DNA of 64,000 bases from Hyphomicrobiaceae bacterium (lineage in GTDB: Bacteria; Pseudomonadota; Alphaproteobacteria; Rhizobiales; Hyphomicrobiaceae), in assembly GCA_020442185.1 (NCBI GenBank), contig JAGRKS010000056.1, forward strand, positions 1-64,000, read 5' to 3'. The notes beneath the pieces were generated by a model. That model saw only the letters and a list, made by a program, of their open reading frames with translations, did not search any database and was not told the origin of the DNA. Position 1 is the stretch's first letter. Each line of letters starts with the position of its first letter. This document shows positions 10,753-28,477 of this stretch, piece by piece. Both the position numbers and the translations under genes were made by a program.

Positions 10753-12090
10753 TCAGCGTTCGCGGAACGCCTTCGCCAACTGGTCCTGGAGCGGCTTCAC
10801 GAGATAGGATAGCGCCGTGCGTTCGTTCGTCGTGATTTGCACGTCTGCTGGCAGGCCGGGCACAAGCCTGTTGTCGCCGAGCTTCGCCAGCTCCGCTTCG
10901 CCGATCGAGAGACGCACGAGGTAGAACGTGCTGCCGGTGCGCTTGTCTTCGGCAAGATCCGCCGAGATGCGCGTCACTTCGCCCATGACTTCCGGCGTCG
11001 TGCGCATGTTGAAGGCTGCGAAGCGGATGACCGCCGGGGCGCCGATGCGCACCTGCTCGCGGTCGCGCGGATCGATCATTGCTTCGATGACGAGCCGGTC
11101 GTCGTTCGGCACGATCAGCATCAGCGGCTCGCTCGGCGAGATGACGCCACCGACGGTGTTGATCGAAAGCTCGTGGACGATGCCATCCGTCGGTGCGCGT
11201 ATATCGACACGCTGCAACTGATCGAGGGCGGCGATCTTGCGTTCGCCGAGTTCCGCGATGCGCGTCTGCACGTCGCGAAGTTCCTTGACCACTTCGGTGC
11301 GGAATTCCTGCTCGCGCTGTACGACCGAGATTTCGATCTCGGTGATCTTTCCGCGCGTCTGCGCGGCGGCCGAGAGCAGTCGCGCATGCTCGCCTCTGAG
11401 TCGCGCGGCCTCGCGGCGCAGCGACATCATTTTCGAGGTCGTCACCAGCCGTTGCAACTCGAGGTCGGCGAGGCTTTCCAGCTCCTTGTCGATCAGCGTT
11501 ATTTCCGTTGCTTTCGCTTCGCGCTGGGAATCGAGCCCGTCGGATTCCTCCCGCAGCTGGCGGATGCGTTCCCTGAGCTGGCTCGTCTCGCTTTCCAGCG
11601 AACTGCGCCGGGAATTGAAGAGGCTGATCTCGCCCCGCACCGTTTCCTTTATCGCGGTCTCCCCCATGCGAGCGCGAATTTCTTCCGGAATGTCGATGGC
11701 TGGTGCATTGCCGCGCTCGGCCGCGAGCCGGGCTTCTCGAACGACGAATTCATCCAGTTGCTTCGTGATGATCTGCAGGTTGGCGCGGGTCATCGTCTCA
11801 TCGAGCCGAATGAGAAGGTCGCCGGCTGACACGCGATCACCGTTGCGCACGTGGATTTCCCCGACGACGCCACCGGTCGGATGCTGGACCTTTTTGACGC
11901 TCGAATCGACCACCACAGTCGCTCCGGCAAGGACGGCGCCGGCAATGTCTGTCGTTACGGCCCAGACGCCGACGCCGCCAAACAGAACGGCGACGACTGC
12001 AAACGCGCCGGCGATATAGGGCGCAAATGTTGCGCGGCGCACGGTCGGGACCGGGGCTCTAAGTGGCGGCGATTGAGGCGTCGATGTCAT
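10753..12090 (-). CDS. HlyD-family type I secretion periplasmic adaptor
   Basis: 445 residues: a short cytoplasmic N-terminus, one membrane helix (about residues 25-47), a lipoyl-like half with HPTGGVVGEIHVRNGDRV near 69-86, a long coiled coil (about 150-300), then the second lipoyl half (DIRAPTDGIVHEL near 305) and a beta-barrel end. It would bridge the inner-membrane ABC exporter to an outer-membrane TolC-type channel. Its start overlaps the stop of the ABC gene by ATGA. No tolC homologue or Gly-rich RTX substrate lies in the window. Confidence 0.93.
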   Translation of the reverse strand: MTSTPQSPPLRAPVPTVRRATFAPYIAGAFAVVAVLFGGVGVWAVTTDIAGAVLAGATVVVDSSVKKVQHPTGGVVGEIHVRNGDRVSAGDLLIRLDETMTRANLQIITKQLDEFVVREARLAAERGNAPAIDIPEEIRARMGETAIKETVRGEISLFNSRRSSLESETSQLRERIRQLREESDGLDSQREAKATEITLIDKELESLADLELQRLVTTSKMMSLRREAARLRGEHARLLSAAAQTRGKITEIEISVVQREQEFRTEVVKELRDVQTRIAELGERKIAALDQLQRVDIRAPTDGIVHELSINTVGGVISPSEPLMLIVPNDDRLVIEAMIDPRDREQVRIGAPAVIRFAAFNMRTTPEVMGEVTRISADLAEDKRTGSTFYLVRLSIGEAELAKLGDNRLVPGLPADVQITTNERTALSYLVKPLQDQLAKAFRER

Positions 12091-14234
12091 GATCCGCGCT
12101 CGCTGTGGTCGATCACGACGACTATACCGCCGAAGTCGTCGATGTTGTGCGGTTCCACACCAGAACTCGGAGTAGCGCCGGGGCCGGCCCCGTGTCCACT
12201 ACTCGGCTCGCTGCTCGCGTCGGGCCGCAGCGGCCGGGCTACTGCCGCGTGCCTCGCGAAGTCGATCGCCTCCACTGGGGCGGCCGCGTGGCGAGAAACG
12301 CCAGACGTGGCGCTGGCCGGTTGCAGCGCCGCGCCATGCGAAGGTGGCGGCGAGGCGAGTGCGACGGCATTGCGATCGATCGCCGATTCGCGGCCATGAC
12401 GGGCTACGCCGCTGGCGCCAGGTGCCGGTGGCGGCCCTGAGCCCGCGCCTTCGTCGTGCGCCTGGCCCGTGCCCTGATCCTGACCTGAACCCATGCCCGG
12501 AACCGCGGATTGGCCGGGCGCTGCGCCTTGCATGACTTTGCGCAGCACCTCGTCGCGCGGACCGAATGCTTTGACCTGTCCATCGGCGACCATCAGCAGC
12601 ATGTTGACGGCCGCGATCGCGGCGGGTCTGTGCGCGATGACGATGACGATACCGCCCCGCGCGCGGGCTGCGGCAATCGCCTGTGTCAACGCCGCTTCGC
12701 CATCGGCATCGAGATTTGCATTAGGTTCGTCGAGTACGATCAAGAACGGGTCGCCATAAAGCGCGCGCGCCAGCGCGATCCGCTGGCGCTGGCCGCCGGA
12801 CAGCTTCTGGCCATCATCGCCGATCCGGGTCTGATAGCCGTCTGGAAGGCGAACGACCAGCTCATGACAATTGGCCGCCCGTGCCGCGGCAATGATGTCG
12901 TCGCTTTTCGCCTCGGGATCGAAGCGCGCGATGTTTTCAGCGACGGTACCCTCGAACAAGCCGATATCCTGCGGCAGGTATCCGATGTGACGGCCGAGTT
13001 CCGTCGGCGGCCATTGGTCGAGCGAGGCACCGTCGACCCTGATGGCGGATGCGATATGCGACGGCTTCCATATGCCGACGAGGGCACGCCCAAGGGTCGA
13101 TTTTCCCGCTGCCGTGGCGCCGATGACGCCCATGGCATCGCCAGCCTGCAACTCGAAGTTGACGTTGCTGATAACCGGCTTCGATGCGCCGGGTGGCGCC
13201 ACGAAGAGATTATGCACTGAAAGCGACTTGTGCGGCGCCGGCAGCTTGAGCCGTTCCTGCTGGTCGAGGTCGACGGCATCGAAGAGGGTGACGAGACGGT
13301 GATACCCCTGGCGTGCGGCGACGAACCCGCGCCAGTGACTGATCGCCAGTTCGATGGGAGCCAGGGCTCGCGACAGCGTGATCGAGGCGGCGATGATGAC
13401 GCCCGCCGTAACCTCGCCCTTCACAGCGAAATACGCACCGAGTCCGAGCATGCCCGATTGCAGGAGCAGGCGCAGTATCTTGCTTGCCGTTCCGATCGCG
13501 GACGTCGCGTCGGAGGCGGCGGTGGTATCATCGACATAGCGCGTGTTGAGCGTCTGCCAGCGCGCGCCGATGCGCTCGCTCATGCCGAGTGCGCGACTTG
13601 TCTGGGCGTTGCGATGGGCCGCCTCCGCCAGAGTGCTGCGATCCTTGTAACTTTGCGCCGCACGTCGGACGGGAGCCGCGCTCGCCACTTCCGACCAGAT
13701 CGTGAGGCCGACGAGCAGCACGGCGCCGGCCGTCGCGAAGAGCCCGAGCATGGGATGCAACAGGTAGACGACACCCAGGTAGACGGGCAGCCACGGCATG
13801 TCGAACAGGGCCGTCGGCCCGAGGCCCGAAAGGAACTGGCGGATCGCATCGAGATCGCGGATCGGCCGTTCGCCCTCGAGTTCCCGCTGAGCGCGCAATG
13901 GCAACAGTTGCACGACTGCGAACACTTTGCCCGAGACATCCTCGTCGATACGCATGCCGACGCGGCTCATCAGGCGTACACGGAAAAAGTCGAGCAAGCC
14001 GTAGGCGACGTAGAGCCCGGCCATAAGCACCGACAATCCGACCAGTGTCGGCAGGCTGTGAGAGGTGAGGACGCGATCGTAGATCTGAAGCATGTACATC
14101 GAGCCCGTCAACGCCAACACGTTGACGATGCCCGAGAAGAAGCCCACCGCGACGAAAATCGCCCAGTTGCGCCTCAGCGCGGACATAATATCGTTCGCGC
14201 CGCGCCGGCCGCGTTGTCGCCTGTTCTTGCTCAT
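12087..14234 (-). CDS. type I secretion system permease/ATPase (PrtD-like)
   Basis: 715 residues. The transmembrane domain spans about 25-300 (helices near 25-45, 65-85, 150-180 and 255-290). The nucleotide-binding domain has Walker A GATAAGKST at 372-380, signature LSGGQRQR at 478-485 and Walker B FLIVLDEP at 497-504. Family members usually end near residue 570-580. This one continues with roughly 145 residues rich in Gly, Pro, Ser and Ala that close on a short hydrophobic stretch (GGIVVVIDHSE), an odd extension. Middle gene of a HlyC-like / ABC / HlyD operon read leftward. Confidence 0.94.
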   Translation of the reverse strand: MSKNRRQRGRRGANDIMSALRRNWAIFVAVGFFSGIVNVLALTGSMYMLQIYDRVLTSHSLPTLVGLSVLMAGLYVAYGLLDFFRVRLMSRVGMRIDEDVSGKVFAVVQLLPLRAQRELEGERPIRDLDAIRQFLSGLGPTALFDMPWLPVYLGVVYLLHPMLGLFATAGAVLLVGLTIWSEVASAAPVRRAAQSYKDRSTLAEAAHRNAQTSRALGMSERIGARWQTLNTRYVDDTTAASDATSAIGTASKILRLLLQSGMLGLGAYFAVKGEVTAGVIIAASITLSRALAPIELAISHWRGFVAARQGYHRLVTLFDAVDLDQQERLKLPAPHKSLSVHNLFVAPPGASKPVISNVNFELQAGDAMGVIGATAAGKSTLGRALVGIWKPSHIASAIRVDGASLDQWPPTELGRHIGYLPQDIGLFEGTVAENIARFDPEAKSDDIIAAARAANCHELVVRLPDGYQTRIGDDGQKLSGGQRQRIALARALYGDPFLIVLDEPNANLDADGEAALTQAIAAARARGGIVIVIAHRPAAIAAVNMLLMVADGQVKAFGPRDEVLRKVMQGAAPGQSAVPGMGSGQDQGTGQAHDEGAGSGPPPAPGASGVARHGRESAIDRNAVALASPPPSHGAALQPASATSGVSRHAAAPVEAIDFARHAAVARPLRPDASSEPSSGHGAGPGATPSSGVEPHNIDDFGGIVVVIDHSERGS

Positions 14235-14316
14235 GACGTTGCGGTCGCAGCCCCTTTGCAGGCGCGCACGGTATCGTGGCTGCTGTTCGCGATCTGGTTC
14301 GGCGCGGTCGTGTGGC

Positions 14317-14868
14317 TCATCCCGCGCTACTCGTGTCGGTCACCTGCGTCGGCTTGATGAAGCCGATTGCGACGCGCCCATTCGCATCCTTGACGCGGAT
14401 CTTGGGGCTAACCGCAGCAAGTTTCTTGCTGGTCAGTTCTCGCAGCAGCAGGCCGAGCGCCTGTTTTTCGCCAGCGGCCGCAATGATCCAAGGAATATCG
14501 CCCGATGACCACTCTTCGAGGCTCAGCTTCATTGGTTCGGTCAGGTTGGTCGAGAGGCGCTTGTCGACGTCCGGCGAGACCATGGCCCAAAGCACGGCGG
14601 CAACCGGCGCCGTGGCTTGCAGCTTGGCTTCGTGCGATTCCAGGATCGCGAATTGCTGGCGGGTGAGTGCGGGCAGCACGAGCCACTCGAGGTCGGCCAG
14701 CCTGAGGCCACGGAACTCGGGCGAACGCATCAAAAGCATGACGATACCGCCGAACGTGGCGCCGATCATCTTTGATTTGATCAGGTTCCGCTTTGCCTCG
14801 TCCGACAGCGTTGGGGGCTGGCCCGCCATCTGGCTGGGTGCCGCATCCTGCTTGGGCGTTTCTGACAT
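14317..14868 (-). CDS. HlyC-like (RTX toxin acyltransferase family) protein lacking the catalytic pair
   Basis: 183 residues. The core resembles toxin-activating lysine acyltransferases: MRSPEFRGLRLADLEWLVLP from residue 47, PVAAVLWAMVS near 88-98, and EEWSSGDIPW at 118-127. HlyC uses His23 (in SPLHR) and Asp92 (ten residues after the Trp of DWTSGD) to acylate pro-toxin lysines. The aligned positions here are Phe52 and Ala130, so classical acyltransfer is not expected. It heads the type I secretion operon, 82 bp before the ABC gene, which is where hlyC sits relative to hlyB. The role may be chaperone-like or may use other residues. Family assignment is from memory of the motif pattern. Confidence 0.7.
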   Translation of the reverse strand: MSETPKQDAAPSQMAGQPPTLSDEAKRNLIKSKMIGATFGGIVMLLMRSPEFRGLRLADLEWLVLPALTRQQFAILESHEAKLQATAPVAAVLWAMVSPDVDKRLSTNLTEPMKLSLEEWSSGDIPWIIAAAGEKQALGLLLRELTSKKLAAVSPKIRVKDANGRVAIGFIKPTQVTDTSSAG

Positions 14869-15158: not shown

Positions 15159-16040
15159 ATGTCGCAACATCATCCGATCATCACCGTAACCGGATCGTCA
15201 GACCGCGCGAACGAGAACATCCGCGAGACATTCGAACACATCTTCTGGCGCGAAAAAGTGTCGGCGGCCTTTATCGACGGCTCGGCATATCGCCGCTTCG
15301 ACCGGGCCGGCTTCGAGGCCGAACTGGTTCGCGCCCGGGTCAGAGGGCAGCGCCCCATCAGTCACTTCGGGATCGAGGCGAACCTCTTGTCGGAACTCGA
15401 GGAGACCTTCCGTCGGTATGGCGAGACCGGGACCGGCCGGACGCGCCACTATGCGCACTCCGAGGCTGTCGCGCTGCGGCACGGCGTACCGACCGGCACC
15501 TTTACGCCATGGCAACCGCTGCCGGAGCCGACCGATATCCTGCTCTATGAAGGCCGGCACGGTGCGCTGGTGACGGATGGCATCGACATCGCCCGGCACG
15601 GCGACATGAGGATCGGCGTCGTGCCGGTCATCAATCTCGAATGGATCGAGAAGATCCAGCGTGACAAGGCCGATCTTGGATATTCGACGGCGGCAATCAC
15701 CGACACCATACTGCGGCGCATGACCGACTACGTCGAGATAGTCTGCCCGCAGTTCTCGCATACGGACATCAACTTCCAGCGCATACCCATCGTCGACACC
15801 TCCAATCCCTTCATTGCCCGCTACGAGCCGACCGAAGAGGAAACGATGGTCGTCATACGTTTCCGCAATCCCCGCGGCATCGACTTTCCCTATCTGCTGT
15901 CGATGATCCACGACAGCTTCATGTCGCGCGCCAATTCGATCGTCATTCCGGGCGGCAAGCTCGATATCGCCATGCAACTGATCCTGATGCCCATGATCCT
16001 CCAACTCGTCGAGCGCTCGCGCCGTGCGCGCTGGCTTTGA
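15159..16040 (+). CDS. phosphoribulokinase homologue with a destroyed nucleotide-binding site
   Basis: 293 residues, collinear without gaps (from memory) with the class I proteobacterial phosphoribulokinase of Rhodobacter over nearly its whole length. Strongly conserved stretches include SHFGIEAN, YGETGTGRTR, IGVVPVINLEWI, PQFSHTDINFQR, VDTSNPFIARY and RFRNPRGIDFPY. PRK converts ribulose 5-phosphate plus ATP to ribulose 1,5-bisphosphate. Here the P-loop GSSGAGTST reads GSSDRANEN (residues 12-20), catalytic Asp42 is Ser, His45 is Arg and Lys53 is Glu. Glu131, His100, Arg168, Asp169 and Arg187 remain. Start chosen by homology; an upstream ATG at 15111 would add 16 residues. hrpB follows with a TGATG overlap. 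No RuBisCO in the window. Confidence 0.88.
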   Translation: MSQHHPIITVTGSSDRANENIRETFEHIFWREKVSAAFIDGSAYRRFDRAGFEAELVRARVRGQRPISHFGIEANLLSELEETFRRYGETGTGRTRHYAHSEAVALRHGVPTGTFTPWQPLPEPTDILLYEGRHGALVTDGIDIARHGDMRIGVVPVINLEWIEKIQRDKADLGYSTAAITDTILRRMTDYVEIVCPQFSHTDINFQRIPIVDTSNPFIARYEPTEEETMVVIRFRNPRGIDFPYLLSMIHDSFMSRANSIVIPGGKLDIAMQLILMPMILQLVERSRRARWL

Positions 16041-20181: not shown

Positions 20182-20922
20182 TCAGTTGGCGGTAGGGGCC
20201 AGCAGTTCGCGCGCGATGGGCGGCGGTGCGACGGGCACCAGCTTCCGGTCGAAATCGCGCCAACCGTCAGTGCCTTCGGGGAACCAGTAGAGCCTCGTGT
20301 AGCCGAGGCTTGCGGCGCGCTTCATCGCGTTCCACGACATCCAGCAATCGGCATAACAGAAAAGTATGAGCGGTCGGGTTCGGTCGCGTTCGGTGACGCG
20401 CGCGAGCTCGTGGGCGAAATAGGCGAGGACGACGGGATCGATCCTGCCACGGCCGACTTCGGGCAACCAGGTCGCGCCCGGAAGCGACGCGTGCGACTTG
20501 TTGCTGCGCCAGGCGCCGCTTGCTGGGTCAAATCCGGCACCGGTGATCGGGGAGACGTCAATCAGCCGGGCGTTTTCCTCGGCCAATAGGCGGTCTATTT
20601 CGTCGAGCCAGACCCTCTGCCCCACGGGAGGCCTATCCGGCACGGCGGCCTGATAGCGTTCGACGCGATAGCCGGTGTCCGGATCGAAATGGTCGATCTG
20701 CGGCGCGCCCGCGACTGCGGTTTGGTTGGCCATGACGAGCAGTGCGATAACACTCAGTACAAATGCGGCGGTGGCCTGCGGGGCGAGCAGCAGCGATGCG
20801 CCGCGGCCGCCAGGGGGCGGCGACCGGCGAAACATCAGCCACCGCGCCGAATAGCCTCGCGCGGCCTGCTTCGGCGACGAAATTACACAATCCGGCAAAG
20901 GCTTCTGCTTGACGATCGTCAT
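20182..20922 (-). CDS. PQQ-dependent catabolism-associated CXXCW-motif rhodanese-like protein
   Basis: 246 residues from an ATG that overlaps the beta-propeller stop by ATGA; an internal ATG (residue 30) would place a hydrophobic signal-like segment ([13 protein letters not shown]) nearer the N-terminus. The C-terminal half is rhodanese-like with [20 protein letters not shown] near residue 193, the Cys...Cys-Trp signature of the small proteins that accompany periplasmic quinoprotein dehydrogenases. The visible spacing between the two cysteines is three residues. Predicted exported; it may act on thiols of the SoxYZ-like carrier nearby. Second gene of a leftward pair. Confidence 0.85.
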
Positions 20923-21893
20923 TTCTTCGGCCGGATGGCGACGCCCCATGGATAGCGGCCAACGGTGATCGACTTGATCGGAACGAGGCGTGCCACGTCG
21001 ATGACGGTTACGTCGTTCGAAACGCCGTTGGTCGTGAACAGCCGGTCTTCCTCGGGCGTCAGCGCCAGATGCCAGACGCGCTGCCCGACGAGAATGTACT
21101 TCTTGACCTCGAACGTCCTGGTGTCGATCACGGCGACGCGGTTCGACGGGCCGAGCGCCACGAAGGCCGTCTTGTCGTCGCGGGTCAGTTTCAAGCCGAC
21201 GGGCTGAATGAGTTCGGTGCGGATGCCGGAGACGGCAAATGTGATCGTCTTGACGATCTTGCGGGTTGCCATGTCGATCACGGCCACGCTGCCGCCGATT
21301 TCGGAGGTGACCCACAGCATCGAACCGTCGTTGTTGAATTCGGCGTGGCGCGGGCGCGCGTCGACGAGGATGTTGTCGACCGTCTCGAACGTCTCGGTGT
21401 CGATGAGATGGGCCATGTTGGTCGTCTCGGACGTCGTAACGGCGATGCGGTTGTCCGGCGACACGGCCATGCCTTCCGGCTCGATACCGACATCGACCTG
21501 GCGCAAAACCTTGCGGCTTTCGAGATCGATGACAGTCGTGACGGCGTTGTCCTCGTTGGCGATGTAGAGACGCTTGTTGTCGGGCGAAACGGCGAATTGT
21601 TCGGGGTCGTCGCCGGATGGCAGGTCGTAGAGCAGCTTGTCCGTCGCGGCGTCGAATACCTGCACGGAGTCGCTATCGCTCGCGCAAACGAAAAACTGTT
21701 TGTAATCGCGTGAGAAGGTGATGCCACGCGGCCGCTGTCCGACGGCGAACGTGCGCACGACCGTTAGCGTCTCGCTGTCGATAACCGAGATCGTGTTGTC
21801 TTTCTCGTTTGAGACATACACTTCGTGTGCCGAGGCCAAACACGGGGTTGCCAGGAAGACCGAGAGCGGCAGTAGCATCAACCGTTGCAGCAT
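20919..21893 (-). CDS. PQQ-dependent catabolism-associated beta-propeller protein (YVTN type)
   Basis: 324 residues with a signal peptide ending near SAHEVYV (about residue 23), then roughly seven blade repeats of the form VYVSNEKDNTISVIDSET / LYIANEDNAVTTVID / VWHLALTPEEDRLFTTNG. These YVTN-repeat proteins accompany PQQ alcohol dehydrogenases (PedB-like in Pseudomonas), where the exact function is unknown. Divergent from the cytochrome gene across a 351-bp control region containing two copies of a candidate operator. Confidence 0.88.
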   Translation of the reverse strand: MLQRLMLLPLSVFLATPCLASAHEVYVSNEKDNTISVIDSETLTVVRTFAVGQRPRGITFSRDYKQFFVCASDSDSVQVFDAATDKLLYDLPSGDDPEQFAVSPDNKRLYIANEDNAVTTVIDLESRKVLRQVDVGIEPEGMAVSPDNRIAVTTSETTNMAHLIDTETFETVDNILVDARPRHAEFNNDGSMLWVTSEIGGSVAVIDMATRKIVKTITFAVSGIRTELIQPVGLKLTRDDKTAFVALGPSNRVAVIDTRTFEVKKYILVGQRVWHLALTPEEDRLFTTNGVSNDVTVIDVARLVPIKSITVGRYPWGVAIRPKK

Positions 21894-22056
21894 TGTTGTC
21901 CGCGGACCCTCGAGCCGGCCAATTCAGGCAAGACGTTCCTCAACCCACAGGCACTGCTGTCCAACAGCCTCGGCCCGGATAGAGCCCCGCCGCGCGCCTT
22001 CGATCGGGCCGCGTTCCGGAGCTTTCCCGGCAAGCTAGGTATCGGACGGCCGACTC

Positions 22057-22088
22057 CCAAGTGTACTATGGTACAATGTATCACTTGG
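22057..22088. promoter_or_regulatory. dyad CCAAGTG-N18-CACTTGG with inner TGTAC-TATG-GTACA
   Basis: Perfect 7-bp outer arms (22057-22063 and 22082-22088) and a perfect 5-bp inner inverted repeat (22062-22066 and 22071-22075). The inner part, TGTACTATGGTACAAT, matches the 17-bp element found upstream of the cytochrome and alcohol dehydrogenase genes at 12 of 16 positions, so it may be a third, more symmetrical copy. Confidence 0.55.
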
Positions 22089-22151
22089 TGGCAGGGCTTC
22101 GTAGCGAAAGTTGTCGTGTGACGGTGGTGGTGTCTGGTGTGCCGACAGTTT

Positions 22152-22168
22152 TTGCACTATTTGGCAAT
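22152..22168 (+). promoter_or_regulatory. shared 17-bp element, copy upstream of cytochrome c-550
   Basis: TTGCACTATTTGGCAAT, identical at 16 of 17 positions to 25758-25774 upstream of the PQQ alcohol dehydrogenase. It ends 76 bp before the cytochrome ATG. The TTGC...GCAA ends form an imperfect dyad. Candidate activator-binding site. Confidence 0.6.
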
Positions 22169-22244
22169 TCCTGGCCGGAACCCGCCTCGACTATCTTGTT
22201 CGAAACAAAAGCAATCAGATAACTGGAAACGCGGAGTGCTCTTC

Positions 22245-22676
22245 ATGAATCGGACCCGTGTCGTGGCGGCTCTTGTCGCCATGTGTGTTCTCGTTGCGGG
22301 TGGCATCGCCCAGGTCGAGGCGCACGGCGATGTCAGCCCGCAGCCCGTCGATACCACAGGACTTGAGCCCCTCGGTGAGACCTGGCTCGAAAAGAACCCC
22401 TATAGCGGCAACGAAGTCGCGATCAAGATCGGGTCGTCTGGCTACAATCAGAACTGCGCGCGTTGCCACGGCCTCGAGGTGATCTCGGGTGGTCTTGCTC
22501 CGGATCTTCGCTACCTTGAAAAGGGCGAGACGGGTGACGAGTGGTTCATGCAGCGCATCCGTCATGGCGCGACGATCAATGGCGTAACCAAGATGCCGGC
22601 TTTCGAGGGTACTCTCAGTCAAGAGGCCATGTGGGCGATACGCGCCTATATCGAAGCCAAGCACGACGACAGCTGA
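22245..22676 (+). CDS. pedF: cytochrome c-550 (PedF type)
   Basis: 143 residues from the ATG opening MNRTRVVAALVAM. A signal peptide runs to about residue 26 (VEAHGDV). One haem site CARCH lies at 71-75 and the likely Met ligand is Met117 in TKMPAFEG. Size and sequence (QPVDTTGLEPLG, WLEKNPY) match cytochrome c-550 PedF, the periplasmic electron acceptor of PQQ ethanol-type dehydrogenases, and not XoxG/MxaG. First gene of a rightward cluster. Confidence 0.9.
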   Translation: MNRTRVVAALVAMCVLVAGGIAQVEAHGDVSPQPVDTTGLEPLGETWLEKNPYSGNEVAIKIGSSGYNQNCARCHGLEVISGGLAPDLRYLEKGETGDEWFMQRIRHGATINGVTKMPAFEGTLSQEAMWAIRAYIEAKHDDS

Positions 22677-22697
22677 GCAGCCTGGCGCGTGTCAACC

Positions 22698-23594
22698 ATG
22701 CGACTTTGCAGGTCCCCCGGCGCGTGTCAGTTGCGAGCGAGGCTCCCTTGGAGCCTCGCTTTTCTCGCGTTTGCATTTGTTGTCGTCGGCTATGGCAGCA
22801 CACCCGCTGTGGCCCGCCCCATCGATGAAATCACTGCGTCTGGCGTACTGCGCGTCATCGTCTACGATGACAATGCACCATTCTCGTGGACCGCGGACGA
22901 TGGAAGCATCAAGGGTATCGATGCGGATATCGGGCGTGCCATCGCCGCACGCCTCGGCGTCAAGGCCGACATCATCGCGCGCACCGCTGGCGAGGAAGCC
23001 GACGACGACTTGCGATCGAACATCTGGCAGGGACCTCGCACCGGTGGCCTCGTCGGCGACGTCATGATGCATGTGCCGATGGAAAAGGAGTTCATCGCGC
23101 GCAACAATCTGGTCGCGATTTCGAATGCCTATCATCACGAACAGACGGTTCTCGTCGTTCACCCCGACATGGTCGATCCGGAGAAGGGGCTTGCCGCGTT
23201 CGATAGCGCGAAGCTCGCAGTGCAGTTCGCGACCGTCGCCCACTACTACGCGATGTTTGCCGACGCGGAGCGCTACAAGGCCAACATCAACCCATATCGG
23301 AAATTCGATGCGGTCGCGGAGGCATTCCTCGATCGCAGCAACGCCGGTATTCTCGGACGTCGCTCGGAGATCGAGGCGGCGCTTGCCGGCAAGGCGGGCG
23401 ACTTCCGCATCCTGCATCCCAAATTCGAGACGTACATGCGGATGGCGTGGACGATCGGCACCGCCGTCAAGTTCGATAGTCGCGACACGGGCTACGAAGT
23501 CGGCAAGGCCATGGCGGAACTCCGCGCCAGCGGCGCGCTCGAGCGGATATTCAAGGCCCATGGCGTAACGCTCGTCGAGCCGCCGGCGCCGTGA
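22698..23594 (+). CDS. quinoprotein dehydrogenase-associated periplasmic binding protein (XoxJ/PedA-like)
   Basis: About 298 residues from ATG 22698 (a GTG at 22689 is also possible). A signal segment ends near VARPIDEI. The rest is a family 3 solute-binding fold (GVLRVIVYDDNAPFSW, GIDADIGRAIAARLG, with a GLVGDVMMHVP hinge). Proteins of this type stand beside PQQ methanol/ethanol dehydrogenases (MxaJ, XoxJ, Pseudomonas PedA-like); rather than feeding an ABC transporter they may help activate or load the dehydrogenase. No ABC transporter genes accompany it here. It lies 21 bp after the cytochrome gene. Confidence 0.88.
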   Translation: MRLCRSPGACQLRARLPWSLAFLAFAFVVVGYGSTPAVARPIDEITASGVLRVIVYDDNAPFSWTADDGSIKGIDADIGRAIAARLGVKADIIARTAGEEADDDLRSNIWQGPRTGGLVGDVMMHVPMEKEFIARNNLVAISNAYHHEQTVLVVHPDMVDPEKGLAAFDSAKLAVQFATVAHYYAMFADAERYKANINPYRKFDAVAEAFLDRSNAGILGRRSEIEAALAGKAGDFRILHPKFETYMRMAWTIGTAVKFDSRDTGYEVGKAMAELRASGALERIFKAHGVTLVEPPAP

Positions 23595-23699
23595 CGGGCA
23601 GCTCGTCGCAAGCATCGGCACCATGGTTTGACGCTGGTACTCGCCTTGGGGCGAAATTGGCAGTAGAGTCGCAGCGAGACACAACATGGGGAACTCGAC

Positions 23700-24554
23700 A
23701 TGACGCCTCGGTGGACGAGACGGCTATCCGCGACGGCGGTGGCGATCTGTGCGAGCCTGGGCCTCGCCGCTCCCTCTTTCGCAGCGGCAGGCGACGACCC
23801 TTTGCGGTCCATCATGTGGACCGAGATGAAGGCGCAGTTCTTCGGTGACGCGAAGGTTGTTTTCGATGACAAGGTGCGCGTTGTCGTCCCCTCGATCGTC
23901 GAGAACCAGGCGCAGGTGCCGGTAACGGCCGATGCGCGCGGCGTTGAAGGCGTGCAGAAGCTCGTCGTCTTCGCCGATCTCAATCCCATTCAACACGTCC
24001 TGACCCTGACACCCCGAAAGGCGCACGCGTTCATCGCGTTTCGCATGAAAGTCGAGCAGGGCACGCCGGTGCGCGCAGCTGCCCTCACCGCGGATGGCGT
24101 CTGGCATGTCGGCGGCGTGTTCCTCAACGCGGCGGGCGGTGGATGTTCGGCGCCGGCAATGGCCCGCCAGGATGAGGATTGGAGCCAGACGGTCGGTCAT
24201 GCGCGCGGCAAACTGTGGCGCGAGGTAGACGGCTCGACACGGGTACGCTTTCGCGTCCGCCATCCGATGGACACCGGTCTCGCGCGCGACAACACGCCCT
24301 CGTTTTTTATCGAGCAGCTGGACATGCGGTCGGCCGACGGACAGTCGCTCGCTTCGCTGGAGTTGAAAGAGCCGGTCAGCGAGGATCCGACGTTGACGAT
24401 GATGGTGCGTCTGCCCGTTGCCGACAACGCGTTGACGATCGACGGCCGCGACAACGGCGGAGAAACCTATCGCTCTAAAATTCCCGCATCGTGGCGTCAG
24501 AGCGGTCTGACGAGCGGATTGCAGCAGCATGGACCGAGCCGTGACAGCCGCTGA
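23700..24554 (+). CDS. quinoprotein dehydrogenase-associated SoxYZ-like carrier
   Basis: 284 residues, signal peptide to about residue 30 (PSFAAAG). The N-terminal half is SoxY-like, ending in a Gly-Gly-Gly-Cys-Ser-Ala-Pro motif with Cys149. In SoxY this cysteine is a swinging-arm site that carries sulfur intermediates, although here it is internal and not C-terminal. The C-terminal half (RVRFRVRHPMDTGLARDN... to the end) is SoxZ-like. Part of the set defined bioinformatically as a quinoprotein relay system together with the metallohydrolase downstream. GGGGA lies upstream of the ATG. The substrate carried is not known. Confidence 0.88.
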   Translation: MTPRWTRRLSATAVAICASLGLAAPSFAAAGDDPLRSIMWTEMKAQFFGDAKVVFDDKVRVVVPSIVENQAQVPVTADARGVEGVQKLVVFADLNPIQHVLTLTPRKAHAFIAFRMKVEQGTPVRAAALTADGVWHVGGVFLNAAGGGCSAPAMARQDEDWSQTVGHARGKLWREVDGSTRVRFRVRHPMDTGLARDNTPSFFIEQLDMRSADGQSLASLELKEPVSEDPTLTMMVRLPVADNALTIDGRDNGGETYRSKIPASWRQSGLTSGLQQHGPSRDSR

Positions 24555-25626
24555 TCGTCCAATGCGATCGGGTGGCGCGGATGACGGTGTCAGGACGGAT
24601 GCCGGCTCCGCCATCACGGCTGCCGGCCACGGCGGCGAGCCTCGTGACCGAGCGCCAGCGGGGGTTTCGCGTCGCGAGGCATTGCGCGCGCTTGCAGGAG
24701 TTGCCTCGCTGCCGGCGATATGCGCGGCGTTCGATGCCGATGCAGCACCGCTTTCCTACAACCTGTCGCCGCAGCCGATCGGCGATGGCGTCTGGCTGAT
24801 CCGCGGCGCACAAGAGCCGATTGATCGTCAGAACGGCGGCGCCATAGCCAACGTCGTGATTTTCTCGAGTTCGGAAGGCGCAGTCGTTATCGATACAGGA
24901 CCATCGAAGCGATATGGCCTGGAACTCGCGTCGGCCGCCGAACGCCTGACGGGTCAACCGGTCGTGCGCGTCTACATTACCCACTTCCACCCTGATCACG
25001 TGTTCGGCAACCAGGCCTTTCCGGCCCAATCGCTGGCGGCGCCCCAGGGTGTTGTCGATGGCCTCGAATCGCTCGGCGAGGATTTCGCGGCGGCGATGTA
25101 CTATACGGCCGGCGACTGGATGCGCGGAACCGAAGTGGTCCGGCCGACGCGGATCGTGACGAGCGGGACTGAAGCGTTCGGTGGTCGCCGGTTCAATCTG
25201 CTGACGCTCGCGGGGCACACGAATAGTGATCTCGCGGTCTTCGAGGAAAACTCGGGAATTCTCGTCGCTGGCGATCTTGCATTTCTCGATCGCGCGCCGA
25301 CGACGCCGCACGCCGATCTGGCGACCTGGCGCACGAGCCTCACATCACTCTCAACGATCGAGCATCGCCTGCTCGTCCCAGGCCATGGTCCGGCGGAAGA
25401 TGGTCGTCGCGCGTTCGTGCAGACACGCGATTGGCTGGATGTGATCGAGGCGAAGATCCGCGGCGCCTTCGATCGCGGCCTGTCGATGACGGAGGCGATT
25501 GGCGAGCCTTTGCCGGCATGGACCGAAAAGGTTGCGCTCGCACGTTACGAATACGAACGCTCGGTCATGCATTTCTATCCAAAGCTGGAAGCGGGCGGCT
25601 GGCCGCGCGTCGACGAGAAGCGCTAG
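24529..25626 (+). CDS. quinoprotein relay system zinc metallohydrolase (SoxH-like MBL fold)
   Basis: 365 residues, starting inside the end of the SoxYZ-like gene (26-bp overlap). The N-terminus carries SRREALRALAG near 47, a twin-arginine-like export signal. The metallo-beta-lactamase motifs follow: THFHPDH at 151-157, GHTNSD near 208, AGDLAFLD near 225 and PGHGPAED near 260. Predicted periplasmic hydrolase acting on the Cys149-bound group of the SoxYZ-like carrier, by analogy with SoxH; this is inference from family naming and gene order. Confidence 0.88.
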   Translation: MDRAVTAADRPMRSGGADDGVRTDAGSAITAAGHGGEPRDRAPAGVSRREALRALAGVASLPAICAAFDADAAPLSYNLSPQPIGDGVWLIRGAQEPIDRQNGGAIANVVIFSSSEGAVVIDTGPSKRYGLELASAAERLTGQPVVRVYITHFHPDHVFGNQAFPAQSLAAPQGVVDGLESLGEDFAAAMYYTAGDWMRGTEVVRPTRIVTSGTEAFGGRRFNLLTLAGHTNSDLAVFEENSGILVAGDLAFLDRAPTTPHADLATWRTSLTSLSTIEHRLLVPGHGPAEDGRRAFVQTRDWLDVIEAKIRGAFDRGLSMTEAIGEPLPAWTEKVALARYEYERSVMHFYPKLEAGGWPRVDEKR

Positions 25627-25757
25627 TTCCGCTCTGCCCCGACGGTCCCGATCGCATTCAGCGGACGCCGGTTTCCTTTTCGGCCGATGTGCGACGCGCA
25701 AGAATTCGGCTGTTTCACTCGAAAACAGTGCTGCATTCAAAGCTCGCCGCGACATAA

Positions 25758-25774
25758 TTGTACTATTTGGCAAT
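25758..25774 (+). promoter_or_regulatory. shared 17-bp element, copy upstream of the PQQ alcohol dehydrogenase
   Basis: TTGTACTATTTGGCAAT, one mismatch from the copy at 22152-22168. It ends 107 bp before the dehydrogenase ATG. Flanking sequences are unrelated, which argues for selection on the element itself. Confidence 0.6.
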
Positions 25775-25836
25775 AAGCGCCCCGGACACCCTGCGATAAC
25801 GTCGCACTTGGCCAGACTTCCGACGCGCCGCTAGAG

Positions 25837-25848
25837 CCCGTTAACGGG
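25837..25848. promoter_or_regulatory. perfect 12-bp palindrome before the PQQ dehydrogenase
   Basis: CCCGTTAACGGG is a perfect palindrome 33 bp upstream of the ATG, probably within the promoter or the 5' leader. AAGGGG just before the start is the ribosome-binding site. Confidence 0.45.
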
Positions 25849-25881
25849 GAAGCAGCCAGGAAACCAACCAAGGGGATATCA

Positions 25882-27645
25882 ATGAAGACGTGGAAATGGT
25901 TCGCCACTGCGAGTGCGCTGGCGCTTTCCGTAACGCTTGCCCAGCCGTCGCTCGCCGACGTGTCGATCAACGACATCGTCAACGACGCCGCGACTGTCGA
26001 GGATGTCGTGAGCAACGGCCTTGGCCCGCAGGGCCAGCGCTACAGCCCGCTCGCGAAAGTCAACAAGGACAACGTCGCCAATCTTGTTCCGGCCTGGGCC
26101 ATGTCGCTCGGCGGGGAGAAGATGCGCGGCCAGGAAACACAGCCGCTCGTCAAGGACGGCGTGATGTACATCACCGGCTCTTACAGCCGGATGTGGGCGA
26201 TCGACACCAAGACCGGCCACGAGCTCTGGCAGTATGACGCCCGCCTTCCCGAAGGCATTCTGCCATGCTGTGACGTGGTCAACCGCGGCGCGGCAATTCA
26301 CGGCGACAAGGTGTTCTTCGGCACGCTCGACGCGAAGCTGTTGGCGCTCGACGCCAAGACCGGCAAGGTCGTTTGGTCGAAGAAGATCGACGACTTCAAG
26401 GCCGGCTTCTCCTATACAGCCGCTCCGCTCATCGTTCCGTCCGACAAGTTCGGTCCGATCATCGTCACCGGCGTTTCGGGTGGTGAGTTCGGCGTCGTGG
26501 GTCGTGTCGAGGCCCGCAAGGTCGATGACGGCACGCTCGTCTGGTCGCGTCCGACCATCGAAGGCCACATGGGCATGCTCGACGGCAAAGAGTCGACCAT
26601 GACGGGCAAGAAGAACGAGAGCTGGCCGGGTGATCTGTGGAAGACCGGTGGTGGCGCCACCTGGCTCGGCGGCACGTACGATCCCGAGACGAAGCAGATC
26701 TTCATCGGAGCGGGCAACCCGGCTCCCTGGAACAGCCACATGCGTCCGGGCGACAACAAGTGGTCGTGCTCGCGTTTGGCCCTCGATCCGGAAACCGGCA
26801 ACATCAAGTGGGGCTTCCAGACGACCCCGAACGATGGTTGGGACTTTGACGGCGTCAACGAGGTCGTCTCGTTCGACCTCAATGGCACGAAGGCCGCAGC
26901 GACGGCTGACCGCAACGGCTTCCTCTACGTGCTGAACCGCGAGAGCGGCAAGTTCATCGGCGGTTACCCGTTCGTCAAGAACATCACTTGGGCGAAGGGC
27001 CTCGACGCGAACGGCCGTCCGATCTACGACCCGGCCAATCGTCCTGGAAATCCGGCGAAGTCGGCCGATGGCAAGAAGGGCGCTGCGGTCTTTGCCGTGC
27101 CGAGCTTCCTCGGCGGCAAGAACTGGATGCCGATGGCCTACTCGAAGGACACGAAGCTGTTCTACATCCCTTCCAACGAGTGGGGCATGGACATCTGGAA
27201 CGAGCCGGTCACCTACAAGAAGGGCGCGGCCTACCTTGGCGCTGGCTTCACCATCAAGCCGATCTTCGACGACCACATCGGTTCGCTGAAGGCCATGGAT
27301 CCGGCGACGGGTCAGGTGAAGTGGGAATACAAGAACAAGGCTCCGCTTTGGGGTGGCGTTCTTACGACGGCCGGCGGTCTGGTGTTCTTCGGTACGCCCG
27401 AAGGTGACCTCAAGGCGATGGATGCCGAAACGGGCAAGCAGCTCTGGGCGTTCAACACTGGCTCCGGCGTTGTCGGTTCTCCCATCACCTGGGAAGAGAA
27501 CGGCGAGCAGTTCGTGACCATCGTGTCGGGCTGGGGCGGCGCCGTGCCGCTGTGGGGTGGAGAGGTCGCCAAGACCGTCGCTCACCTCAACCAGGGCGGC
27601 ATGGTCTGGACGTTCAAGCTGCCGAAGAAGCTCGCGCAGAACTAA
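25882..27645 (+). CDS. PQQ-dependent alcohol dehydrogenase with lanthanide-type Asp pair (PedH/ExaF/XoxF superfamily)
   Basis: 587 residues, signal peptide to about residue 25 (QPSLADV). An eight-bladed PQQ propeller with the vicinal disulfide Cys129-Cys130 and probable metal ligands Glu202 (GGEFGVVG), Asn279 (GAGNPAPW) and catalytic Asp321. Two residues on, Asp323 ([10 protein letters not shown]) is the extra acid typical of lanthanide-dependent enzymes, where calcium enzymes such as MxaF carry Ala. It oxidises primary alcohols in the periplasm and passes electrons to cytochrome c-550. The partner cytochrome is PedF-like and the GWDFDGVNE context resembles ethanol-type enzymes more than methanol XoxF, so I do not assign a substrate. 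A terminator follows. Confidence 0.93.
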
Positions 27646-27685: not shown

Positions 27686-27720
27686 CCGGGGCGAGTGGGA
27701 AAGTCCGCTCGCCCCGGTTT
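27686..27720 (+). terminator. rho-independent terminator after the PQQ dehydrogenase
   Basis: Ten-base perfect arms CCGGGGCGAG (27686-27695) and CTCGCCCCGG (27708-27717) around a 12-base loop, followed by a short TTT. It separates the dehydrogenase from the response regulator. The T-run is short, so termination may be partial. Confidence 0.7.
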
Positions 27721-27814
27721 GCATATTGCAACCGCCGCTGTCCAATGTGACAGTGGCTTGGATCACAAGAGCATGACCCATCATGCCGTAGCGGTCGCTT
27801 GGGAGGATCGAGCG

Positions 27815-28477
27815 GTGCCCGCCAATTTTCTCGTCGTCGACGACCATCCGCTGTTCCTCGAGGCGCTGCGGCTATCATTGAATTCGGCCTATCCCGATGC
27901 GCGTATCGTGGAGGCGACATCGATTGCCTCGGCGCGCGAGGCGATTGCCACCGAAGGGCCGTTCGATCTCCTGTTGCTCGATCTTTCGATGCCGGGCACG
28001 TCGGGCTTCGACGGGCTTCTGGAACTCCGAACCCATCATCCAAAGCTGCCCGTCGTCATCTGCTCCGGACTCGAGGACCCGCGGATCATCCATGAGGCCA
28101 TGGTCTACGGCGCCGCCGGCTTCATTTCGAAGTCGGTGCGGCGCTCCGAACTGGCCTCGGCGATCGATCAGATCATGTCCGGCAGCGTCTATTTGCCCGA
28201 GAGCTACACGCCGCCCGATGGCGACACCGGCAGCGCCGTTGCCGATCTCGCAGCACGCCTTGCATCGCTGACGCCACAGCAGCTGCGCGTTTTGAAGATG
28301 CTGCGCCAGGGCATGCTGAACAAGCAGATCGCCTACGAACTCGACGTCGGCGAAACGACGGTCAAAGCGCACGTGTCCGAGATCTTGCGCAAGCTCAACG
28401 TCGCCTCGCGTACGCAGGCCGTGATCGAAGTCGGCAAGATCGGCTTCGATTCGATCATCGGCGGCGGTGACAACTGA
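27815..28477 (+). CDS. LuxR-family response regulator of the quinoprotein locus (AgmR/PedR-like)
   Basis: 220 residues from GTG at 27815, preceded by GGAGG eight bases upstream; ATG 27773 would add 14 residues lacking homology. The receiver domain has VVDDHP near residue 6, phospho-acceptor Asp in LLLLDLSMPG near 55 and a conserved Lys in ISKSVRR near 105. The C-terminal LuxR HTH is LTPQQLRVLKMLRQGMLNKQ...TTVKAHVSEILRKLNV near 150-200. Same architecture and placement as AgmR/PedR regulators of PQQ alcohol oxidation. No histidine kinase is adjacent, so the cognate sensor must be elsewhere. Confidence 0.9.
   Translation: MPANFLVVDDHPLFLEALRLSLNSAYPDARIVEATSIASAREAIATEGPFDLLLLDLSMPGTSGFDGLLELRTHHPKLPVVICSGLEDPRIIHEAMVYGAAGFISKSVRRSELASAIDQIMSGSVYLPESYTPPDGDTGSAVADLAARLASLTPQQLRVLKMLRQGMLNKQIAYELDVGETTVKAHVSEILRKLNVASRTQAVIEVGKIGFDSIIGGGDN

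Follow-up and report, generated by a model that had tools for sequence, protein, structure and literature searches.

A predicted phosphoribulokinase pseudoenzyme encoded upstream of hrpB in a Hyphomicrobiaceae genus

The window analyzed here, which is the whole 64,000-nucleotide stretch from contig JAGRKS010000056.1 of a Hyphomicrobiaceae bacterium, encodes a homolog of phosphoribulokinase (PRK), a sugar-phosphate kinase that normally functions in CO2 fixation or methanol signaling. The gene for this homolog, named pseudo-PRK, is located between a type I secretion gene set and the helicase gene hrpB. The locus contains the following features:

10753..12090, minus strand: HlyD, partner of the type I ABC transporter, syntenic
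12087..14234, minus strand: type I secretion ABC transporter, a conserved neighbor and syntenic marker
14317..14868, minus strand: HlyC/RTX-acyltransferase-like protein, a conserved neighbor and syntenic locus marker
15159..16040, plus strand: pseudo-PRK, predicted catalytically dead phosphoribulokinase homolog of 293 aa (from profile, alignment, and predicted structure)
15192..15218, plus strand: degenerate Walker A motif/P-loop, residues 12-20, GSSDRANEN (consensus GSSGAGTTS), from comparison with other PRKs
15282..15284, plus strand: D42S, encoded by TCG; all 134 intact homologs have Asp here, and the ortholog from genome G002 has Ser (AGC)
15768..16037, plus strand: C-terminal domain (residues 204-293), in which the dead copies share 80% identity, with Arg234 and Arg257 among the shared residues
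16037..18703, plus strand: ATP-dependent helicase gene hrpB; 4-nt overlap with the pseudo-PRK stop

The type I secretion and HlyC-like set (10753-14868) is a conserved feature of this locus in several family genomes; its HlyC-like protein (PF02794) is divergent and is matched by no NCBIfam model. Further downstream, positions 20182-27645 hold a PQQ alcohol dehydrogenase locus, which encodes a CXXCW protein, a beta-propeller protein (TIGR03866), the PedF cytochrome c550, a substrate-binding protein, a SoxYZ-like carrier, a SoxH-related metallohydrolase, and a PQQ alcohol dehydrogenase of the methanol/ethanol family, and which is followed by a gene for an ErdR-like LuxR-type response regulator (27695-28477).

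The pseudo-PRK gene is a single uninterrupted reading frame of 293 codons with an ATG start, and its GC content at the three codon positions (0.60/0.47/0.78) resembles that of the neighboring genes. The encoded protein scores 432.6 bits against the NCBIfam model PRK15453 (curated cut-off 362) and 170 bits against the Pfam PRK model (cut-off 22), and the gene is thus a bacterial-type phosphoribulokinase by descent. A gapless alignment to PRK, claimed by an earlier sequence-only reading of this DNA, was confirmed against the R. sphaeroides enzyme (1a7j_A) over residues 1-288; hence, the residue numbers of pseudo-PRK are those of R. sphaeroides PRK. The AF2 model built with 34 homologs has a mean pLDDT of 89.4, its lowest-confidence block falls on the former P-loop (residues 11-20, minimum pLDDT 63), and its best match among solved structures is 1A7J (TM-score 0.90, rmsd 1.8). 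Based on this confidence and this match, the PRK fold of pseudo-PRK is expected to be intact.

For comparison of individual residues we used 134 distinct full-length PRKs and 22 further top matches. The Walker A sequence GSSG(A/S)GT of active PRKs, intact in all 134 proteins, reads GSSDRAN in the window copy, and the catalytic base Asp42 is replaced by Ser42. The catalytic roles of Asp42 and of the P-loop Ser/Thr are known from mutagenesis of R. sphaeroides PRK, described in part in PMC5241800. The window copy is altered at Gly15, Gly17, Thr18, Asp42, His45 (to Arg), and the lid residue Arg173 (to Leu), all of which are invariant in the 134 other PRKs, and it has Glu19 at a position occupied by Ser or Thr in these proteins. 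The GSSDRANEN, D42S, and H45R changes had been correctly recognized in the sequence-only reading, which omitted R173L from its list. The same reading listed K53E with these changes; as an inactivating mark it was dropped, since position 53 is Lys in 59, Arg in 29, and Glu in 25 of the 134 intact PRKs, and Glu53 is present in 13 of 19 intact hrpB-linked homologs. The residues kept in the window copy include Arg49, Tyr98, His100, Glu131 (the Walker B position), Lys165, Arg168, and Asp169; thus, the reported retention of H100, E131, R168, D169, and R187 is correct and extends to K165. Arg31, Arg187, Arg234, and Arg257, which we take from the R. sphaeroides literature to be the NADH/AMP allosteric site, are retained both in the window copy and in its G002 ortholog. 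Because Asp42 and the P-loop are gone, no PRK activity is expected, and these substitutions indicate that it has almost certainly been lost.

The second dead PRK was identified in another species of the same genus (G002:C29:37553-38428). Its P-loop reads GTAGDATEA, and it carries the replacements of Asp42 by Ser, His100 by Asp, and Glu131 by Gln; it aligns to the window copy without gaps at 61% identity. The two copies have in common S9T, G17A, S/T19E, D42S, Q164E, and S229T, and both keep R49, Y98, K165, R168, and D169. Glu19 is encoded by GAG in both genes; Ser42 is encoded by TCG in the window copy and by AGC in G002, so the D42S replacement may have arisen twice, or its codon may have switched. 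Synteny between the window and G002 is complete over 16 kb, with HlyD, the type I ABC transporter, the HlyC-like protein, hrpB, and an acyl-CoA dehydrogenase in the same order around both copies, and in both genomes the end of prk and the start of hrpB share 4 nt. The source genome is fragmented into 218 contigs, which could raise the suspicion of an assembly or annotation artifact; however, a chimeric contig or a frameshift is ruled out by the open frame, on which the sequence-only reading had also relied, and by the like gene at the same locus and with the same neighbors in the separately assembled G002, leaving an artifact with a negligible probability. Another explanation is that the protein is still an enzyme, in which the altered nucleotide site supports a weak phosphotransfer reaction or one of another kind. 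Unusual P-loops are known among kinases, and the window copy keeps Glu131, Lys165, Arg168, and Asp169; however, the catalytic base Asp42 is gone in both copies, Glu19 stands in place of the conserved P-loop Ser/Thr, and G002 additionally lacks Glu131 and His100, making a surviving phosphotransferase very unlikely.

The clade of dead PRKs is small and comprises two species, one genus, and one locus. The altered motif is absent from the 134 distinct full-length PRKs and the 22 further top matches, all of which have an intact P-loop and Asp42. Among the matches read in 60 relatives and 103 family genomes, G002 has the single other dead copy; the top matches in samples of the order (397 genomes) and the class (385 genomes) all have the P-loop and Asp42 intact, and no further dead PRK was found among the 80 closest loci from 84,980 species genomes. 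In this wider search the best-scoring matches were read residue by residue, and a remote, independently arisen dead PRK could lie beyond them. The suggestion that GSSDRANEN-type loops mark a conserved clade therefore holds in part: two species share G17A, S/T19E, and D42S, whereas the full string is private to the window species.

The window genome encodes a further PRK on contig C106, which is intact and, judging from its sequence, probably active, together with FBPase, transketolase, RPE, and RuBisCO; the sequence-only reading had asked whether such genes exist elsewhere in the genome. RuBisCO and a separate intact PRK are present in four of four genomes examined from the genus. At the hrpB locus of the window genome, fbp and rpe are absent and the dead prk alone remains. 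In the sister species G001 and G003, prk itself is absent and about 220 bp separate the HlyC-like gene from hrpB; this clean deletion indicates that pseudo-PRK is dispensable.

Related genomes carry an intact PRK gene within an fbp-prk-rpe-hrpB arrangement or a variant thereof. Examples of this order or a close variant in Hyphomicrobiaceae-type genomes are the loci L172 (5089-10287), L153 (4153-9423), and L170 (3030-9648). The PRK-bearing genomes of the family are mostly positive for the methylotrophy marker Fae and mostly without RuBisCO. On the phylogenetic tree, the dead copies constitute one clade (SH-aLRT 97) within the group of hrpB-linked PRKs, and each of them is still placed in this group when the other is left out. 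Both copies evolve fast, as their tip lengths indicate (0.65 and 0.97 vs. a median of 0.12); long-branch attraction as the sole cause of their pairing is unlikely given the leave-one-out placement and the synteny, which is independent of the tree. Phylogeny and gene order together trace pseudo-PRK back to the hrpB-linked PRK found in methylotrophs of the Hyphomicrobiaceae type, with fbp-prk-rpe-hrpB as the presumed ancestral order. The sequence-only reading had drawn a parallel to the PRK of Methylobacterium, pointing to the nearby alcohol-oxidation locus. The parallel stands insofar as the ancestral gene of this locus was an intact PRK of a type that occurs mainly in methylotrophs without RuBisCO, but the proximity is neighborhood alone: the first of the PQQ alcohol-oxidation genes lies at 20.2 kb, with hrpB and the acyl-CoA dehydrogenase gene intervening, and a functional tie to them was given no weight.

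A full cbb operon in the genus would make the hrpB-linked PRK redundant, and we infer that this redundancy was followed by the loss of fbp and rpe, the inactivation of prk, and its deletion in one lineage. The genomes G091, G094, and G113, which belong to the same family, each encode two intact PRKs, one of them cbb-linked (L145/L171, L146/L172, and L147/L173, respectively); thus, the possession of two PRKs alone does not lead to the loss of catalysis. The cbb PRKs of these three genomes carry C-terminal extensions (305 aa). In another genome of the family, prk is reduced to its first ~100 codons and adjoins a start-less cbbL that lies in a different frame (L152, 4497-5553, G005:C109), which looks like a deletion inside the cbb operon.

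The redundancy could also mean that pseudo-PRK is a slowly dying fossil, dispensable once the cbb operon was present, the reading frame of which is kept mainly via its overlap and translational coupling with hrpB. The fbp and rpe genes already missing from the locus, the clean deletion in G001 and G003, the long branches, the 4-nt overlap in both species, and the different Ser42 codons are all consistent with such a fate. However, the differences between the dead copies are biased to third codon positions (0.28/0.23/0.54 at positions 1/2/3), and omega=1 is strongly rejected for the pair by pairwise GY94 likelihood (2dlnL = 194, p = 4e-44); synonymous sites are saturated and omega has no interpretable magnitude, so the test against omega=1 was used alone. 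In simulations of neutral drift at 0.3-0.8 substitutions per site, the frame stays open in 0.1-2.6% of trials. The 61% identity of the dead PRKs compares with 64% for HrpB, 60% for HlyD, and 56% for the type I transporter, their intact neighbors. The identity within the dead pair is 0.80 in the C-terminal domain, 0.63 in the lid, and 0.64 in the P-loop segment vs. 0.84, 0.93, and 0.84, respectively, within an intact hrpB-linked pair, and conserved active-site positions are altered in at least one dead copy more often than other conserved positions (10/16 vs. 10/78, Fisher p = 8e-5). These sequence comparisons indicate that constraint is relaxed at the P-loop and lid, whereas the C-terminal oligomer domain shows about the same degree of conservation as its counterparts in intact orthologs. 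Coupling to hrpB would preserve the frame but not the 80% identity of this domain, and hrpB manages without prk in G001 and G003; thus, we consider a fossil gene unlikely. Random decay across the gene, which the sequence-only reading had named as grounds for rejecting its proposal, is not the observed pattern, and its view that selection acts on the protein body despite the lost ATP and catalytic sites is supported by the rejection of omega=1 and by the C-terminal identity. A late inactivation that occurred independently in each lineage would mean that some of the purifying signal is older than the loss of catalysis; Ala17 and Glu19, being common to both copies, speak against this scenario. 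Pseudo-PRK is thus identified, from a comparison of two sequences, as a real pseudoenzyme in two of four species of the genus with purifying selection after the loss of catalysis. It is probably not a decaying pseudogene, and it has very probably retained a function at the protein level despite the dead site.

The loss of the catalytic centre from a protein kept in two species suggests a non-catalytic, regulatory role. In R. sphaeroides, PRK is an octameric, NADH-regulated enzyme (PMC5241800, PMC4806589), whose dimer and octamer interfaces are formed by the C-terminal domain (PMC5241800), and its activation by NADH ties the redox state to cbb expression via RuBP and CbbR (PMC4806589). In Methylorubrum extorquens, PRK is independent of RuBisCO and regulatory, and RuBP activates QscR (PMC8388818; Ochsner et al. 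2017, cited in PMC8388818 and PMC11252147). The conserved C-terminal domain and arginines, combined with this NADH-PRK-RuBP signaling, favor a non-catalytic partner of the active CbbP, and the explanation that we consider reasonably likely as a whole is a redundant hrpB-linked PRK kept as a CbbP-tuning pseudoenzyme. The fold, the C-terminal domain that forms the oligomer, and the allosteric arginines have been preserved, and pseudo-PRK would most likely act through these parts. It may serve as a regulatory subunit without catalysis of its own, joining CbbP in mixed octamers that would tune the CbbP output in response to NADH/AMP, and the altered output would in turn affect the RuBP supply and RuBP signaling through CbbR-type regulators. 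This mixed-oligomer mechanism, suggested by the conservation of the C-terminal oligomer domain, is proposed tentatively. Alternatively, pseudo-PRK may be a stand-alone sensor that binds Ru5P/RuBP or NADH/AMP and acts on HrpB, a LysR regulator, or another partner. Such a sensor would agree with R49, Y98, K165, R168, and D169 and the four allosteric arginines being kept in both copies, with the hrpB-linked relatives residing mostly in RuBisCO-less methylotroph genomes, and with RuBP being a signal in M. extorquens (PMC8388818). However, the losses at the Ru5P site differ between the species (H45R and R173L in the window copy, H100D in G002), so the capacity to bind sugar phosphates has not been maintained consistently, and we regard the stand-alone sensor as improbable.

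The preferred reading, a CbbP-tuning pseudoenzyme, has partial counterparts among known systems. Pseudo-PRK resembles R. sphaeroides PRK (1A7J) in its gapless alignment, predicted fold (TM 0.90), C-terminal domain, and allosteric arginines, but its P-loop and Asp42 are destroyed, and Ru5P phosphorylation cannot be assumed. With the regulatory PRK of M. extorquens it shares a genomic background, in that its hrpB-linked ancestors are mostly found in Fae-positive, RuBisCO-less genomes; however, signal production in M. extorquens depends on an active enzyme, whereas the catalytic site of pseudo-PRK is lost and its host genome encodes RuBisCO and another, intact PRK. Non-catalytic regulatory paralogous subunits, or prozymes, are represented by the trypanosome AdoMet decarboxylase prozyme and by ClpR in ClpPR. 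They are similar to pseudo-PRK in being dead paralogs beside a living oligomeric enzyme, with a conserved interface and a lost catalytic centre; the difference is that the co-assembly of pseudo-PRK with CbbP is hypothetical, and no such subunit is reported for PRK in the literature searched. No PRK pseudoenzyme is described in that literature, most subscription journals being outside its scope. A more specific and rather doubtful version is a PRK prozyme derived from a methylotroph RuBP-signaling PRK, which would co-assemble with the autotrophic CbbP and couple one-carbon/redox state to RuBP in lineages combining methylotrophy with the Calvin cycle.

PRK is one of two enzymes treated as Calvin cycle markers. 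A protein that is annotated as phosphoribulokinase well above the curated cut-off but has no catalytic centre can easily mislead the inference of pathways. The locus displays a series of steps, from the intact module in relatives through the cbb operon, the loss of fbp and rpe, and the loss of catalysis to the deletion in a sister lineage, and pseudo-PRK constitutes a natural experiment on the roles of PRK beyond catalysis. If the dead subunit does modulate CbbP, it would represent a new way of controlling the RuBP supply.
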